Below are positions 1,077-53,776 of a DNA stretch of 64,000 nucleotides, piece after piece. The DNA is taken from contig NZ_RHHB01000003.1 of the NCBI RefSeq assembly GCF_003710805.1, positions 62,001 through 126,000 on the forward strand, read 5' to 3'. The notes below the pieces were generated by a model, which worked only from the letters and a program-made list of their open reading frames with translations, was not told the DNA's origin and did not search any database. Position numbers and translations under genes: made by a program. This stretch comes from Agromyces tardus. Lineage in GTDB: Bacteria; Actinomycetota; Actinomycetes; Actinomycetales; Microbacteriaceae. How positions within the stretch are numbered: position 1 is the first letter of the stretch; every line of letters starts with the position of its first letter.

Positions 1077-3319
<2,243 letters not shown>

Positions 3320-7486: not shown

Positions 7487-7593
7487 GGGTCTCGATACGC
7501 TCGCTGCGCTCGCCACTCGACCGGCGGGGGCCGGGGCTCGCTGCGCTCGCTACTCGACCAGCGGAGGCCGGGGCTCGCTACTCGACCGGCGGG
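7487..7593. repeat. Dispersed palindromic repeat, one full and two shortened copies
   Basis: Copies at 7487-7527 (full, GGGTCTCGATACG to CCGGCGG), 7531-7565 and 7567-7593, the last two lacking the CTCGATACG end. They occupy the whole gap between the convergent membrane-protein gene and the tetR gene and probably double as the transcription end for both. Confidence 0.8.
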
Positions 7594-11310: not shown

Positions 11311-11341
11311 CGCCGGTCGAGTAGCGAAGCGTATCGAGACC
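11311..11341. repeat. Dispersed repeat copy between paaA and paaB
   Basis: Inverted-orientation copy CGCCGGTCGAGTAGCGAAGC followed by GTATCGAGAC, inserted 3 nt after the paaA stop. It ends before the paaB ribosome binding site AAGGAG (11344-11349). It could form a weak hairpin within the operon mRNA. Confidence 0.8.
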
Positions 11342-11354
11342 TGAAGGAGAACCG

Positions 11355-11660
11355 ATGAGCACCCCCGGCGAGATGGGAACCGAGGCCTGGCCCCTCTGGG
11401 AGGTCTTCGTGCGCGCCAACCGCGGCCTGAGCCACGTGCACGTCGGCTCGCTGCACGCGCCCGACGCCGACATGGCCGTGCGCAACGCGCGCGACCTCTA
11501 CACGCGCCGCAACGAGGGCGTGTCGATCTGGGTCGTCCCTGCCGACGCGATCACCACGAGCGATCCCGACGCGAAGGGCGCGTTCTTCGAGAGCCCCGCC
11601 GGCAAGAACTACCGGCACGCGGTCTACTACACGAAGAGCGAAGGGGTGAAGCACCTGTGA
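11355..11660 (+). CDS. paaB: 1,2-phenylacetyl-CoA epoxidase subunit PaaB
   Basis: Structural subunit of the multicomponent phenylacetyl-CoA epoxidase, 101 residues. The sequence WPLWEVFVRANRGLSHVHVG followed by SLHAPDADMAVRNARDLYTRR is diagnostic of PaaB. ATG11355 follows AAGGAG. Its stop overlaps the GTG of paaC (GTGA at 11657-11660), so the two are translationally coupled. Confidence 0.96.
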   Translation: MSTPGEMGTEAWPLWEVFVRANRGLSHVHVGSLHAPDADMAVRNARDLYTRRNEGVSIWVVPADAITTSDPDAKGAFFESPAGKNYRHAVYYTKSEGVKHL

Positions 11661-12616
11661 GCGCGGAGATCCCCGCCGGTCGAGCAGCGCGCAGCGCGTA
11701 TCGAGACCCCGCGGCCGAGCCTGATGATCTCGAGACGCCTCCTTCGTCGGCTACTCGATCGGCGGACGACCCGCACGGCGAGGTGCACGGCGAGGTGAGC
11801 GTCGACCAGGTCGCGCTCGCCGAGGAACTCGCGGGGTCGTCCGCGGGCGCCGGCCACGTGGCATCCGCCGACGTCGCCGAGTACGCGCTGCGCCTCGGCG
11901 ACGATGCCCTCGTGCTCGCCCAGCAGCTCGGCATGTGGATCAGCTACGCGCCCGAGCTCGAGGAGGACATCGCGCTCGGCAACATCGGGCTCGACCTGCT
12001 CGGCCACGCACGCACCCTGCTGCACTACGCCGGCACCGCCACGGGCCGCAGCGAGGACGACCTCGCGTACTTCCGCGACGAGCCCGAGTTCCGCAACGCC
12101 TGGCTGTTCGAGCAGCCGAACGGCGACTTCGCGCACACCATCGCGCGGCAGCTGTTCGCGTCGACGTACCTGTACGAGCTGTACGGCGCACTGAGCTCCT
12201 CGACCGACCCGACGCTCGCGGCGATCGCCGTGAAGAGCGACAAGGAAGTCGACTACCACCGCGACCACGCGATCCAGTGGACCCTCCGCCTCGCGGGCGG
12301 CACCGAGGAGTCGCGGCGCCGCATGATCCTCGCAGTGGTCGACACGTGGCCGTACGTCGAGGAGCTGTTCGCCGACGACGCGCTCGTCGAGCGGCTCGCC
12401 GCCGAGGGCGTGGCCCCGCTGCCCTCGTCGCTGCGTCCGGCGTTCGACGCCGTGATCGCGAGGGTGTTCGCCGAGGCGGAGCTTGAGATCCCCACCGGCC
12501 GCACGGCGTTCACCGCGTCGGGCGGCGGCCGTGAGGGGCGTCACACCGAGCACCTGGGGCCGATGCTCGCCGAGATGCAGGTGCTCGCACGCGCGCACCC
12601 GGGGGCATCGTGGTGA
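11657..12616 (+). CDS. paaC: 1,2-phenylacetyl-CoA epoxidase subunit PaaC with repeat-derived N-terminus
   Basis: PaaA partner with ferritin-like fold (non-catalytic scaffold in E. coli). From about residue 75 the protein is typical: VAEYALRLGDDALVLAQQLG, the segment IALGNIGLDLLGHARTLLHY, DEVDYHRDH-like KSDKEVDYHRDHA, and LAEMQVLARAHPGASW. At 319 residues it is about 70 longer than E. coli PaaC (248). The extra N-terminal part (AGRAARSAYRDP and LETPPSSATRSADD) is translated from two dispersed repeats. The coupled GTG11657 supports this start. In-frame GTG codons at 11782 and 11794, behind a GGCGAGG, could instead start a normal-length protein. Confidence 0.93.
   Translation: MSAEIPAGRAARSAYRDPAAEPDDLETPPSSATRSADDPHGEVHGEVSVDQVALAEELAGSSAGAGHVASADVAEYALRLGDDALVLAQQLGMWISYAPELEEDIALGNIGLDLLGHARTLLHYAGTATGRSEDDLAYFRDEPEFRNAWLFEQPNGDFAHTIARQLFASTYLYELYGALSSSTDPTLAAIAVKSDKEVDYHRDHAIQWTLRLAGGTEESRRRMILAVVDTWPYVEELFADDALVERLAAEGVAPLPSSLRPAFDAVIARVFAEAELEIPTGRTAFTASGGGREGRHTEHLGPMLAEMQVLARAHPGASW
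11674..11765. repeat. Two dispersed repeat copies inside the paaC reading frame
   Basis: Copy one, 11674-11709, is inverted (GCCGGTCGAGCAGC then GCAGCGCGTATCGAGACCC). In the frame used, the element's common GTCGAGTAGC is read as codons that avoid TAG. Copy two, 11726-11765, is a forward variant (GATCTCGAGACGCCTCC then TTCGTCGGCTACTCGATCGG). Together they account for about 27 codons. Confidence 0.85.
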
Positions 12617-13143
12617 CCGCGGCATCCGTCGCCCGGCCGGTGCCCGCCGACCCGGTGGCCCGGCGCGCCTGGGACGTCGCGGCGACCGTGACCGACCCCG
12701 AGATCCCCGTGCTCACGATCGAGGACCTCGGCGTGCTGCGCTCGGTGTCGGTTGACGACGACGGCCGCGCCGTGCACGTCGAGCTCACGCCCACGTACAG
12801 CGGATGCCCCGCCATGGACGCCATGCGCGACGACGTCGTGCTCGCGCTCACGCACGCCGGCTACGACGAGGTCGACGTGCACATGGTGCTCGCCCCCGCG
12901 TGGACGACCGACTGGATGAGCGACGAGGGCAAGCAGAAGCTCCGCACCTACGGCATCCAGGCGCCGAGCGGACACGCCCCCGCGCGCGATGCCGGCCCCG
13001 TGCGACTGCAGCTCGCGGTGAAGTGCCCGCGCTGCGACTCGCTCAACACCCGCGAACTCGCCCGCTTCGGCTCGACGTCGTGCAAGGCGCTCTACGAGTG
13101 CCGCGACTGCCTCGAGCCCTTCGACTACTTCAAGGTGCTCTGA
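12613..13143 (+). CDS. paaD: 1,2-phenylacetyl-CoA epoxidase subunit PaaD
   Basis: Accessory subunit of the MIP18/DUF59 family, thought to help assemble or maintain the metal centres of the epoxidase. The 176-residue protein has the DUF59 block VTDPEIPVLTIEDLGVLRSV and TPTYSGCPAMDAM. The C-terminal zinc/iron ribbon has cysteines near 138, 141, 157, 163 and 166 (KCPRCDS, SCKALYECRDC). GTG12613 overlaps the paaC stop (GTGA); GTG12610 is possible. The stop TGA overlaps the paaE ATG by one base. Confidence 0.95.
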   Translation: MTAASVARPVPADPVARRAWDVAATVTDPEIPVLTIEDLGVLRSVSVDDDGRAVHVELTPTYSGCPAMDAMRDDVVLALTHAGYDEVDVHMVLAPAWTTDWMSDEGKQKLRTYGIQAPSGHAPARDAGPVRLQLAVKCPRCDSLNTRELARFGSTSCKALYECRDCLEPFDYFKVL

Positions 13144-14513
13144 TGGCCGCACGCAACCTGGGATCCGCCGGTCGAGTCGCGGCGGAGCCGCCCACCGCCG
13201 GTCGAGTAGCGGCGGAGCCGCGTATCGAGACCCCGGAGGCAGATCTCGATTCGCCTCCTTCGTCGGCTGCTCGATCGGCGGTGGGCACGCCTCCTTCGTC
13301 GGCTGCTCGATCGGCGGTAGGCACGCCTCCATGGGCGGCTGCTCGACCCGCAGGCAGCCTGGAGACGGATGCCGCGGTCGCCGACGCGTTCCTCGCGAGC
13401 GCGGTGGGCGGGAACGATGCGCCCAAGCGTCGCCGCGCCCGCTTCCACAGCCTCGAGGTCGCCGAGGTGCGGCCGCTGACCGACGACTCGGTGGAGGTCA
13501 CCTTCGCGGTGCCCGAGGAGCTCGCCGACGACTACACCTACCTGCCGGGCCAGTACGTGGCATTGCGCAAGGAGTTCGACGGACAGGAGCTGCGCCGCAG
13601 CTACTCGATCTGCCGCCCGCCCGTGCGCGGCAGCGTCTCCGTGGCGATCAAGCGCGACCTCGGCGGGCGCTTCTCGACGTGGGCGAACTCCGAGCTCGCG
13701 GCCGGCGACGTGATCGACGTCATGAGCCCGCAGGGCACCTTCACGTCCGGCCTCGACGCGCTCGACGGCAAGCACCTCGTCGGCATCGCCGCGGGCTCGG
13801 GCATCACGCCCCTCATGGCACTCGCGCACACCGTGCTCGCGCGCTCGGAGACGTCGCGGTTCACGCTCGTCTACACGAACCGCTCGACGCGCGACGTGAT
13901 GTTCCTCGAGGAGCTCGCCGAGCTGAAGGACCGCTACCCGGCCCGCCTGGCGCTGCACCACGTGCTCTCACGCGAGCAGCGCACCGCGCCGCTCCTCTCG
14001 GGGCGCATCGACGCCGAGAAGCTCGATCGCATGCTCGAGGTGCTCATCCCGACGGCGACCGTCGACGAGTGGTTCCTGTGCGGCCCCTTCGAGCTCGTGC
14101 AGCTCGCCCGCGACGAGCTCGCCGCGGCCGGGGTGCCCACCGCGAAGGTGCGCTACGAGCTCTTCACGACCGACGCCGATCGGGCCGAGCCCCGTCACGG
14201 CCGTCCGGTCGTCGTCGAGCGCGGCGAGGCGACGGTGGCGATCGAGTTCACGCTCGACGGGCTGTCGTCGACCGTCGAGAGCCCGGTGAGCGCGAACGAA
14301 TCGATCCTCAACGCGGCCCTCCGCGTGCGGGCCGACGTGCCGTTCGCGTGCGCGGGCGGCGTGTGCGGCACCTGCCGGGCTCGCGTCGTCGAGGGCAGCG
14401 TGCAGATGACCGAGAACTACGCGCTCGAACCCGACGAGCTCGAGCGCGGCTACGTGCTCACCTGCCAGTCCCACCCGAAGTCCGACCGGGTCGTGGTGGA
14501 CTACGACGTATGA
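13143..14513 (+). CDS. paaE: 1,2-phenylacetyl-CoA epoxidase reductase PaaE with long repeat-derived N-terminus
   Basis: NADPH-dependent flavoprotein that feeds electrons to PaaA. From about residue 95 it is a standard PaaE: RARFHSLEVAEVRPLT, the FAD block RRSYSICRPP, the NAD block GIAAGSGITPLMA, and a plant-type 2Fe-2S domain with Cys403, 408, 411 and 441 (CAGGVCGTCRA). E. coli PaaE has 356 residues; this one has 456. Residues about 8-70 (AGRVAAEP twice, then SSAARSAVGTPP twice) are read from five adjacent dispersed repeats. ATG13143 overlaps the paaD stop, which favours translation through the repeats. GTG13404 would give normal length but has no visible ribosome binding site. Confidence 0.94.
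   Translation: MAARNLGSAGRVAAEPPTAGRVAAEPRIETPEADLDSPPSSAARSAVGTPPSSAARSAVGTPPWAAARPAGSLETDAAVADAFLASAVGGNDAPKRRRARFHSLEVAEVRPLTDDSVEVTFAVPEELADDYTYLPGQYVALRKEFDGQELRRSYSICRPPVRGSVSVAIKRDLGGRFSTWANSELAAGDVIDVMSPQGTFTSGLDALDGKHLVGIAAGSGITPLMALAHTVLARSETSRFTLVYTNRSTRDVMFLEELAELKDRYPARLALHHVLSREQRTAPLLSGRIDAEKLDRMLEVLIPTATVDEWFLCGPFELVQLARDELAAAGVPTAKVRYELFTTDADRAEPRHGRPVVVERGEATVAIEFTLDGLSSTVESPVSANESILNAALRVRADVPFACAGGVCGTCRARVVEGSVQMTENYALEPDELERGYVLTCQSHPKSDRVVVDYDV
13166..13350. repeat. Five dispersed repeat copies inside the paaE reading frame
   Basis: Copies at 13166-13195 and 13196-13233 (inverted, CCGCCGGTCGAGTMGCGGCG) and 13242-13281, 13286-13317 and 13321-13350 (forward variants with CCTCCTTCGTCGGCTGCTCG). 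Neighbouring copies are nearly identical, consistent with local duplication. Together they supply roughly 60 codons and no stop in the paaE frame. Confidence 0.85.
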
Positions 14514-53414: not shown

Positions 53415-53478
53415 GCCCGGGAGCGGGCGCTGCGGTTCGGGGGAGCCTGCGGCATCCCGCTCCCGTCTGACGCGTCGC

Positions 53479-53776
53479 GCCGATCGAGTCGGCGCGCAGC
53501 GCCGCCCCGCCGATCGCGTAGGCGCGCAGCGCCGCTTCGCCGATCGAGTAGGCGCGCAGCGCCGTGTGCCACGCCGATCGAGTAGGCGCGCAGCGCCGTA
53601 TCGAGATCTCACGGAGGGGTCTCGATACGCGCTTCGCGCTACTCGACCGGCGGCGCGGGTCTCGGTACGCGCTTCGCGCTCCTCGACCGGCGGCGCGGGT
53701 CTCGGTACGCGCTTCGCGCTCCTCGACCGGCGGCGCGGGTCTCGATACGCGCTTCGCGCTACGCGACCGGCGGCGT
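53479..53776. repeat. Array of the dispersed repeat: four inverted then four forward copies
   Basis: Block A has four copies (53479-53505, 53509-53535, 53539-53564, 53573-53606) of GCCGATCGAGTAGGCGCGCA followed by GCGCCG. Block B has four copies with an exact 40-bp period (53617, 53657, 53697, 53737) of GGGTCTCGATACGCGCTTCG followed by CGCTACTCGACCGGCGGCGC. Block A is the reverse complement form of block B. There are no unique spacers. Together with short flanks it accounts for the 417-nt gap 53415-53831. Confidence 0.9.

Follow-up and report, generated by a model that had tools for sequence, protein, structure and literature searches.

The paa locus and the repeat array in paaE

The window, which is the whole 64-kb stretch of DNA analysed here (G000:C23:62001-126000), belongs to a genome of 4.06 Mb and contains paa genes. 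One of these, paaE, encodes a protein with FAD-binding, NAD-binding and 2Fe-2S domains in this order and adjoins paaC and paaD-like genes, which identifies it as the PaaE reductase; the best matches of its core are in Agromyces (up to 91%). The genes and conserved segments that concern us are the following.

11657..12616, forward strand: paaC, whose GTG start overlaps the paaB stop
12610..13143, forward strand: paaD, whose TGA (13141-13143) shares one base with the paaE ATG
13143..14513, forward strand: paaE, 456 aa, with the Pfam domains FAD_binding_6 (105-200), NAD_binding_1 (215-323) and Fer2 (376-446)
13143..13166, forward strand: PaaE N-terminal peptide MAARNLGS, conserved in relatives
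13368..13412, forward strand: DAAVADAFLASAVGG, PaaE residues 76-90, between the array and the reductase, conserved in relatives

The paaE frame starts at the ATG at 13143-13145 and is open to the stop at 14511-14513. An earlier note on this DNA had proposed that the region before the reductase is an N-terminal extension read from repeats; it pointed to the overlap between the paaD stop and this ATG, which is indeed present. The same note placed the beginning of the conserved protein only at about residue 95, a view that has to be revised, since residues 1-8 and DAAVADAFLASAVGG are conserved as well. Between these two segments, from residue 9 to about residue 71, the paaE frame passes through five hairpin-repeat units, of which two are forward and three reversed.

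13165..13194, forward strand: forward unit 1, half-site GGTCGAGTCGC at 13170-13180, encoding AGRVAAEPPT
13195..13232, forward strand: forward unit 2, complete, with GGTCGAGTAGC at 13200-13210, a centre, and GCGTATCGAGACC at 13220-13232, encoding AGRVAAEPRIET
13242..13287, reverse strand: reverse unit 1, half-sites at 13242-13254 and 13266-13276, encoding DLDSPPSSAARSAVG
13288..13323, reverse strand: reverse unit 2, encoding TPPSSAARSAVG
13324..13359, reverse strand: reverse unit 3, degenerate, encoding TPPWAAARPAG

The resulting N-terminus reads MAARNLGS-AGRVAAEP-PT-AGRVAAEP-RIETPEADLDSPP-SSAARSAVGTPP-SSAARSAVGTPP-WAAARPAG-SLET. AGRVAAEP and SSAARSAVGTPP thus each occur twice, as had been read before, in units that are clustered and not dispersed as then described; the encoded peptides also include VAAEPPTAGR and SAVGTPPSSAAR. 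The two forward copies (27 nt, starting at 13165 and 13195) are direct, 30 nt apart and 96% identical, while the three reversed copies (36 nt, starting at 13252, 13288 and 13324) are 97% and 72% identical. The two sets are mutually inverted, with arms of 21 nt that are 86-90% complementary. Each pair of near-identical units differs by a single base, in both cases the third of a valine codon. Both half-sites of the complete unit are free of mismatches, and a 31-base core of the array is identical to two units on another contig (C21) of the same genome. The RNA from 13140 to 13380 has a predicted fold of -142.6 kcal/mol (z -4.9). Elsewhere in the cluster, a single repeat unit (11313-11341) occupies the short gap between paaA (end 11308) and paaB (start 11355).

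The repeat family in the genome and in the bacterial family

In its complete form, the repeat unit consists of GGTCGAGTAGC, a variable inverted centre and GCGTATCGAGACC. Exact pairs of half-sites separated by a centre of 3-12 nt occur 102 times in the genome and 0 times in the reversed control. Among 100 units from the window and the stretches fetched from the same genome, 27 distinct centres were found. Their arms are complementary at 43 of 63 pairs when the outermost pair is left aside (the raw 70/90 also counts 27 pairs that the search pattern predetermines), and both G-C and C-G occur at the same places. In a survey of 299 genomes of the bacterial family, drawn evenly from a larger group, 50 genomes and 26 of 85 genera had a match, with up to 597 matches per genome, and the control gave 0 among the matches listed.

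The surroundings of 66 arrays with at least three half-sites were judged by coding bias, not annotation: 15 lay between convergent, 1 between divergent and 25 between tandem stretches, 14 between stretches in the same frame, and 11 were unclear. The 4398 control spots, judged in the same way, gave 108, 222, 585, 1967 and 1516, respectively. The arrays are therefore placed in the manner of REP sequences, at gene 3' ends and rarely between divergent genes, and their preference for convergent gene ends suggests a role at transcript 3' ends. Within the window, the arrays at 3180-3315 and 7488-7589 each have converging stretches on their two sides, as judged by coding bias, and in the array at 53478-53775, outside any evident gene, about four forward units come before four reversed units of 40 nt.

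The RAYT transposase was considered as the mobiliser of the repeat and rejected: none of eight copy-rich genomes, including the one studied here, had a match to Y1_Tnp (PF01797), and the control found RAYT in 5 of 14. Rfam gave no match above the gathering score in the 64-kb window, and a protein database search with the repeat segment returned 4136 candidates, none with E<=1. No description of this repeat was found in the open literature, a scope outside which most subscription papers fall; a literature search with the repeat's own letters gave matches that were unrelated, as judged by title.

Conservation of the paaE start and frame in relatives

An open frame through the repeats had been offered as an argument for their translation. 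The frame is indeed open, and the argument is a weak one. Among 75 arrays from the window and 36 stretches fetched from the same genome, 59 leave three to five of the six frames open and 6 leave all six; an open frame alone thus proves little, and openness was discarded as evidence of translation.

The comparison with relatives is more informative. In a search of 60 genomes of the genus, 58 had some match and 51, the present genome included, had a PaaE ortholog by score (L081-L131). All 47 parsed paaE loci, of 51 examined, have an ATG that shares one base with the paaD stop and lies at a distance of 2 modulo 3 from the reductase core, with 24 distinct lengths. The four unparsed loci, read by eye, all have an open frame; L082, L128 and L129 start with M(A/T)A(I/V)NLGS, and the N-terminus of L130 differs. 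A motif of the form AFL..(T/A)VGG stands just before the reductase in 45 of the 47 parsed loci, the exceptions being L122 and L131, which encode short forms of PaaE. This motif is also present in several Microbacterium loci and absent from the parsed loci of Leifsonia and Cryobacterium.

Both conserved ends vary most at the third codon position. Across 45 loci, the variation at codon positions 1, 2 and 3 amounts to 16, 12 and 93 of 315 for codons 2-8 and to 67, 45 and 103 of 405 for the AFL..VGG motif. The conserved ATG, the frame kept over 24 lengths and the third-position bias together mean that translation from ATG13143 through the repeat linker is strongly supported, as judged from comparative sequence data. 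The alignment with close relatives that the earlier note had called for hence bears out its reading: the start equivalent to ATG13143 is conserved, and differences in the length of the extension are always multiples of three. No relative had an equally long, conserved N-terminus free of repeats, which would have spoken against this reading; what joins the same two ends in relatives is a shorter, variable linker.

The repeat itself was detected in 8 of the 45 linkers tested, in each case above all 100 shuffles, and was not detected in the other 37. On a tree of the 47 reductase DNAs, the eight carriers do not cluster and need 7 changes (7 in the bootstrap range; shuffled mean 7.5), each of which may be a gain or a loss. 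In two species (L101 and L114), the forward unit is in the frame that would hold a stop, and GAG stands where the consensus has TAG. Local tandem growth is seen in the linkers of L118 and L120. Ala, Pro, Ser and Thr are abundant in the repeat-free linkers too.

In-frame arrays in paaC and in unrelated genes

A second array lies in frame in the N-terminal linker of PaaC (11676..11762; GRAARSAYRD...LETPPSSATRSA). Of 32 paaC loci tried, 21 were parsed, and the frame is kept in every one of these, across 16 lengths; repeat-like peptides were recognised by eye in the window and in L002, L003, L009, L014, L019 and L021. In Agromyces mediolanus (L030), the PaaC linker contains a second, different repeat around TTCGACAGGCTCAGG that appears to be translated (RQAQDGVPRPAQDGVLRPAQG), and a shorter variant of it is found in the linker of L025; only three copies of this type, with one mismatch, occur in the genome of the window.

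A coding-bias scan of the 75 arrays revealed 13 with the same best open frame on both sides. Three of them (L133:2540, L145:2499 and L164:9015) were dropped from the intragenic set because their arrays open the ORF and nothing upstream of them is coding; 10 arrays in nine genes of this genome are left. These encode a LysR regulator, an alpha/beta hydrolase, an NAD-kinase-like protein, a GH42 beta-galactosidase, an MGH1-like glycosidase, an APH-aminotransferase fusion (two arrays), an AidB-like acyl-CoA dehydrogenase, an ABC ATPase, so named from its sequence, and a CMP-sugar-synthetase-like protein. The eight other than the ABC ATPase were run against Pfam: seven have the array inside or between domains of one ORF, and in the MGH1-like gene it precedes the domains found. 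The scan did not flag paaE and paaC, whose arrays closely follow another gene and have mostly that gene on their upstream side; these two in-frame cases rest on the relatives.

Three of the nine genes were compared with relatives, and empty sites were found for all three. For the NAD-kinase-like gene, the flanks (query to about 133 and from about 230) lie within about 10 bases of each other in 12 of the 19 relatives that match with E below 1e-100. In the remaining seven, G013 carries its own repeat-like insert, the flanks are separated by 24-42 bases in G027, G033 and G050 and by more than that in G016 and G020, and G011 is split over contigs. Residues of about 130-190 of the CMP-sugar-synthetase-like protein are absent in, for example, G010 (0 bases between the flanks), G053 (12) and G012 (15), and those of about 130-206 of the alpha/beta hydrolase are absent in G029, G052 and G025, with 6 bases between the flanks. 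Five genes, including paaE and paaC, are thus supported by relatives. The other six (LysR, GH42, MGH1-like, APH-aminotransferase, AidB-like and ABC) are supported by their ORF and coding bias, and five of these also by Pfam; L154 (AidB-like) and L156, with only a short degenerate unit, are the weakest cases. The MGH1-like ORF (L149:7939-11067) has, besides its internal array of 98 residues, further repeat peptides (GRVGAQ, GLDTLRYSTG), clustered close to where it probably starts.

Palindromic repeats that lie in frame in unrelated genes and are absent in relatives are the mark of elements that resemble the Rickettsia palindromic elements (RPEs), and this pattern was found here. The suggestion that the repeat family enters genes in frame in an actinomycete is therefore supported, and more widely than proposed, for paaC and nine other genes.

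Spacing and reading frame of the units

Same-type half-sites at most 80 bases apart are spaced by a multiple of three in 28/28 intragenic pairs versus 66/170 elsewhere, the latter including the three dropped arrays; the intragenic set was picked for an open frame common to both flanks, which helps this result. In the 11 genes, the opening outer half-sites are nearly always read in one frame, with GGT as the first codon: forward half-sites give GRVA.. in 15/16 cases and reversed ones GLDT.. in 22/23. The same opening frame is used in the eight repeat-bearing paaE linkers by 7/8 forward and 6/7 reversed half-sites. Inner half-sites fall in either of two frames (12 and 17; 10 and 3) because the length of the centre varies. 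The forward half-site has a second stop-free frame and the reversed one is stop-free in all three. Since the units of one array are not independent, the fair number of observations is about 11 genes.

This near-single frame could mean that the element is adapted to life in genes, either because its insertion phase is tied to the codon phase or because its sequence has been selected to encode a harmless disordered linker. This idea is tentative, and we consider it rather improbable. If it is true, the repeat would be a mobile source of protein linkers across the bacterial family, spread by an enzyme other than RAYT.

Origin of the linker and alternative explanations

We consider it highly probable that a REP-like hairpin repeat found throughout the genome entered the paaE linker in frame, then expanded, and is now read as protein. 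Such a repeat would have become widespread in the bacterial family, for the most part outside genes, and now and then a copy would land in a gene at a position that tolerates it, in paaE the linker between the N-terminal peptide and the stretch that precedes the reductase. Entry may have occurred by insertion, as we infer, rather than by template-switch copying. Inserted copies would grow into tandem and inverted ones, and only frame-keeping, stop-free outcomes would survive, so that ribosomes starting at ATG13143 would read through. PaaE would thereby gain a linker of about 63 residues that is encoded by the repeat, probably disordered and presumably neutral, and for which a catalytic role is unexpected. 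In the modest AlphaFold2 model of PaaE (mean pLDDT 62), residues 1-71 have a pLDDT below 50 and no order, a helix at 72-87 reaches about 43-53, and the core follows, with parts that are also low; in that of the NAD-kinase-like protein (mean pLDDT 55), residues 137-229, between a helix and a strand, are likewise below 50. The PaaE linker is thus predicted to be disordered, and the simplest reading is probably that loops and linkers tolerate a repeat, selfish or copied.

The repeats could instead be an untranslated spacer between paaD and paaE, with PaaE starting downstream, for instance at the in-frame GTG at 13404, and Di Nocera et al. (PMC3733652) lend this some weight with their caution that wrong annotation may account for many of the N-terminal REPs of other organisms. 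The same GTG may also act as a second start of PaaE. An untranslated spacer is nevertheless very unlikely, given that the upstream in-frame ATG is present in every parsed locus at a distance that keeps the frame over all observed lengths, that codons 2-8 vary mostly at the third position, and that a start at GTG13404 would fall within the conserved AFL..VGG motif. Still harder to credit is an ordinary low-complexity coding expansion, by slippage of Ala, Pro and Ser codons, whose likeness to the DNA repeat would be superficial. The composition of the repeat-free linkers and the tandem growth in L118 and L120 are in its favour, but it is largely contradicted by the exact complete unit, the presence of both orientations and the core shared with C21.

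That the in-frame arrays were recruited, with an mRNA hairpin tuning the PaaE level or the linker aiding assembly of the Paa complex, appears unlikely, if less so than the two explanations above. The fold of the array RNA is very stable, so an effect of the hairpin on the PaaE level is possible, and paaC and paaE linkers were both struck in several species. Against recruitment, most linkers lack a detectable repeat and its presence changes at least seven times, so the array is dispensable in most species, and unrelated enzymes were struck too. In-frame entry of a REP-like repeat that is tolerated in the linker accordingly remains the reading that we prefer.

Comparison with known systems

Palindromic insertions that keep the reading frame are best known from Rickettsia; in other bacteria, the cases described are scattered REPs. 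RPEs, as treated in a review (PMC10969869), are elements of about 150 bp that are found between genes and in frame in unrelated genes, where they add a repeat-encoded peptide. The present repeat shares this behaviour, but its hairpin units are short, about 30-40 nt apart, and form tandem and converging arrays in another host group; the comparison rests on behaviour and on the unit length given in that review, not on sequence alignment. The earlier note had drawn this parallel. The behaviour is alike, but in-frame REPs outside Rickettsia had already been described (PMC3733652).

These are the GTAG/CGTC REPs (Di Nocera et al., 2013; PMC3733652), hairpins of 20-40 bp that form dimers and clusters, lie mostly downstream of genes, between convergent or unidirectional ones, and in some cases are part of ORFs, where they encode 20-82 residues. 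The hosts of GTAG repeats named there are Proteobacteria, Cyanobacteria, Chloroflexi and PVC, and the main text of that article, supplements aside, gave no match for the actinobacterial terms tried. As far as that text describes them, they resemble our repeat in their hairpin units, clusters, placement at gene ends and occasional intragenic position. The present repeat differs in its actinomycete host, in the lack of a RAYT match in the eight genomes, in arrays of up to about 98 residues and in the near-single frame of the opening half-sites; moreover, GTAG here stands immediately before the variable centre, as part of a longer conserved half-site and not at its end.

Enterobacterial small mobile sequences such as ERIC, and other MITEs, are described as non-autonomous repeats that can sit in genes and carry ORFs (PMC2759123; PMC10969869). 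The likeness is that of small repeats inside genes with ORFs; terminal inverted repeats and target-site duplications are not part of it, and the insertion boundaries here are approximate. The MIRUs of mycobacteria are actinobacterial tandem repeats at the overlapping stop and start codons of operon genes, and the paaE array resembles them in this position, by description and not by sequence.

Because the many sequenced relatives allow occupied and empty sites to be compared gene by gene, the conversion of repeat into protein, with its rate, frame and cost, is directly testable, and protein models from such genomes can carry repeat-encoded segments. Among the systems covered by these sources, RPEs and intragenic GTAG/CGTC REPs are the closest, and the actinomycete host and near-single opening frame set the present repeat apart.
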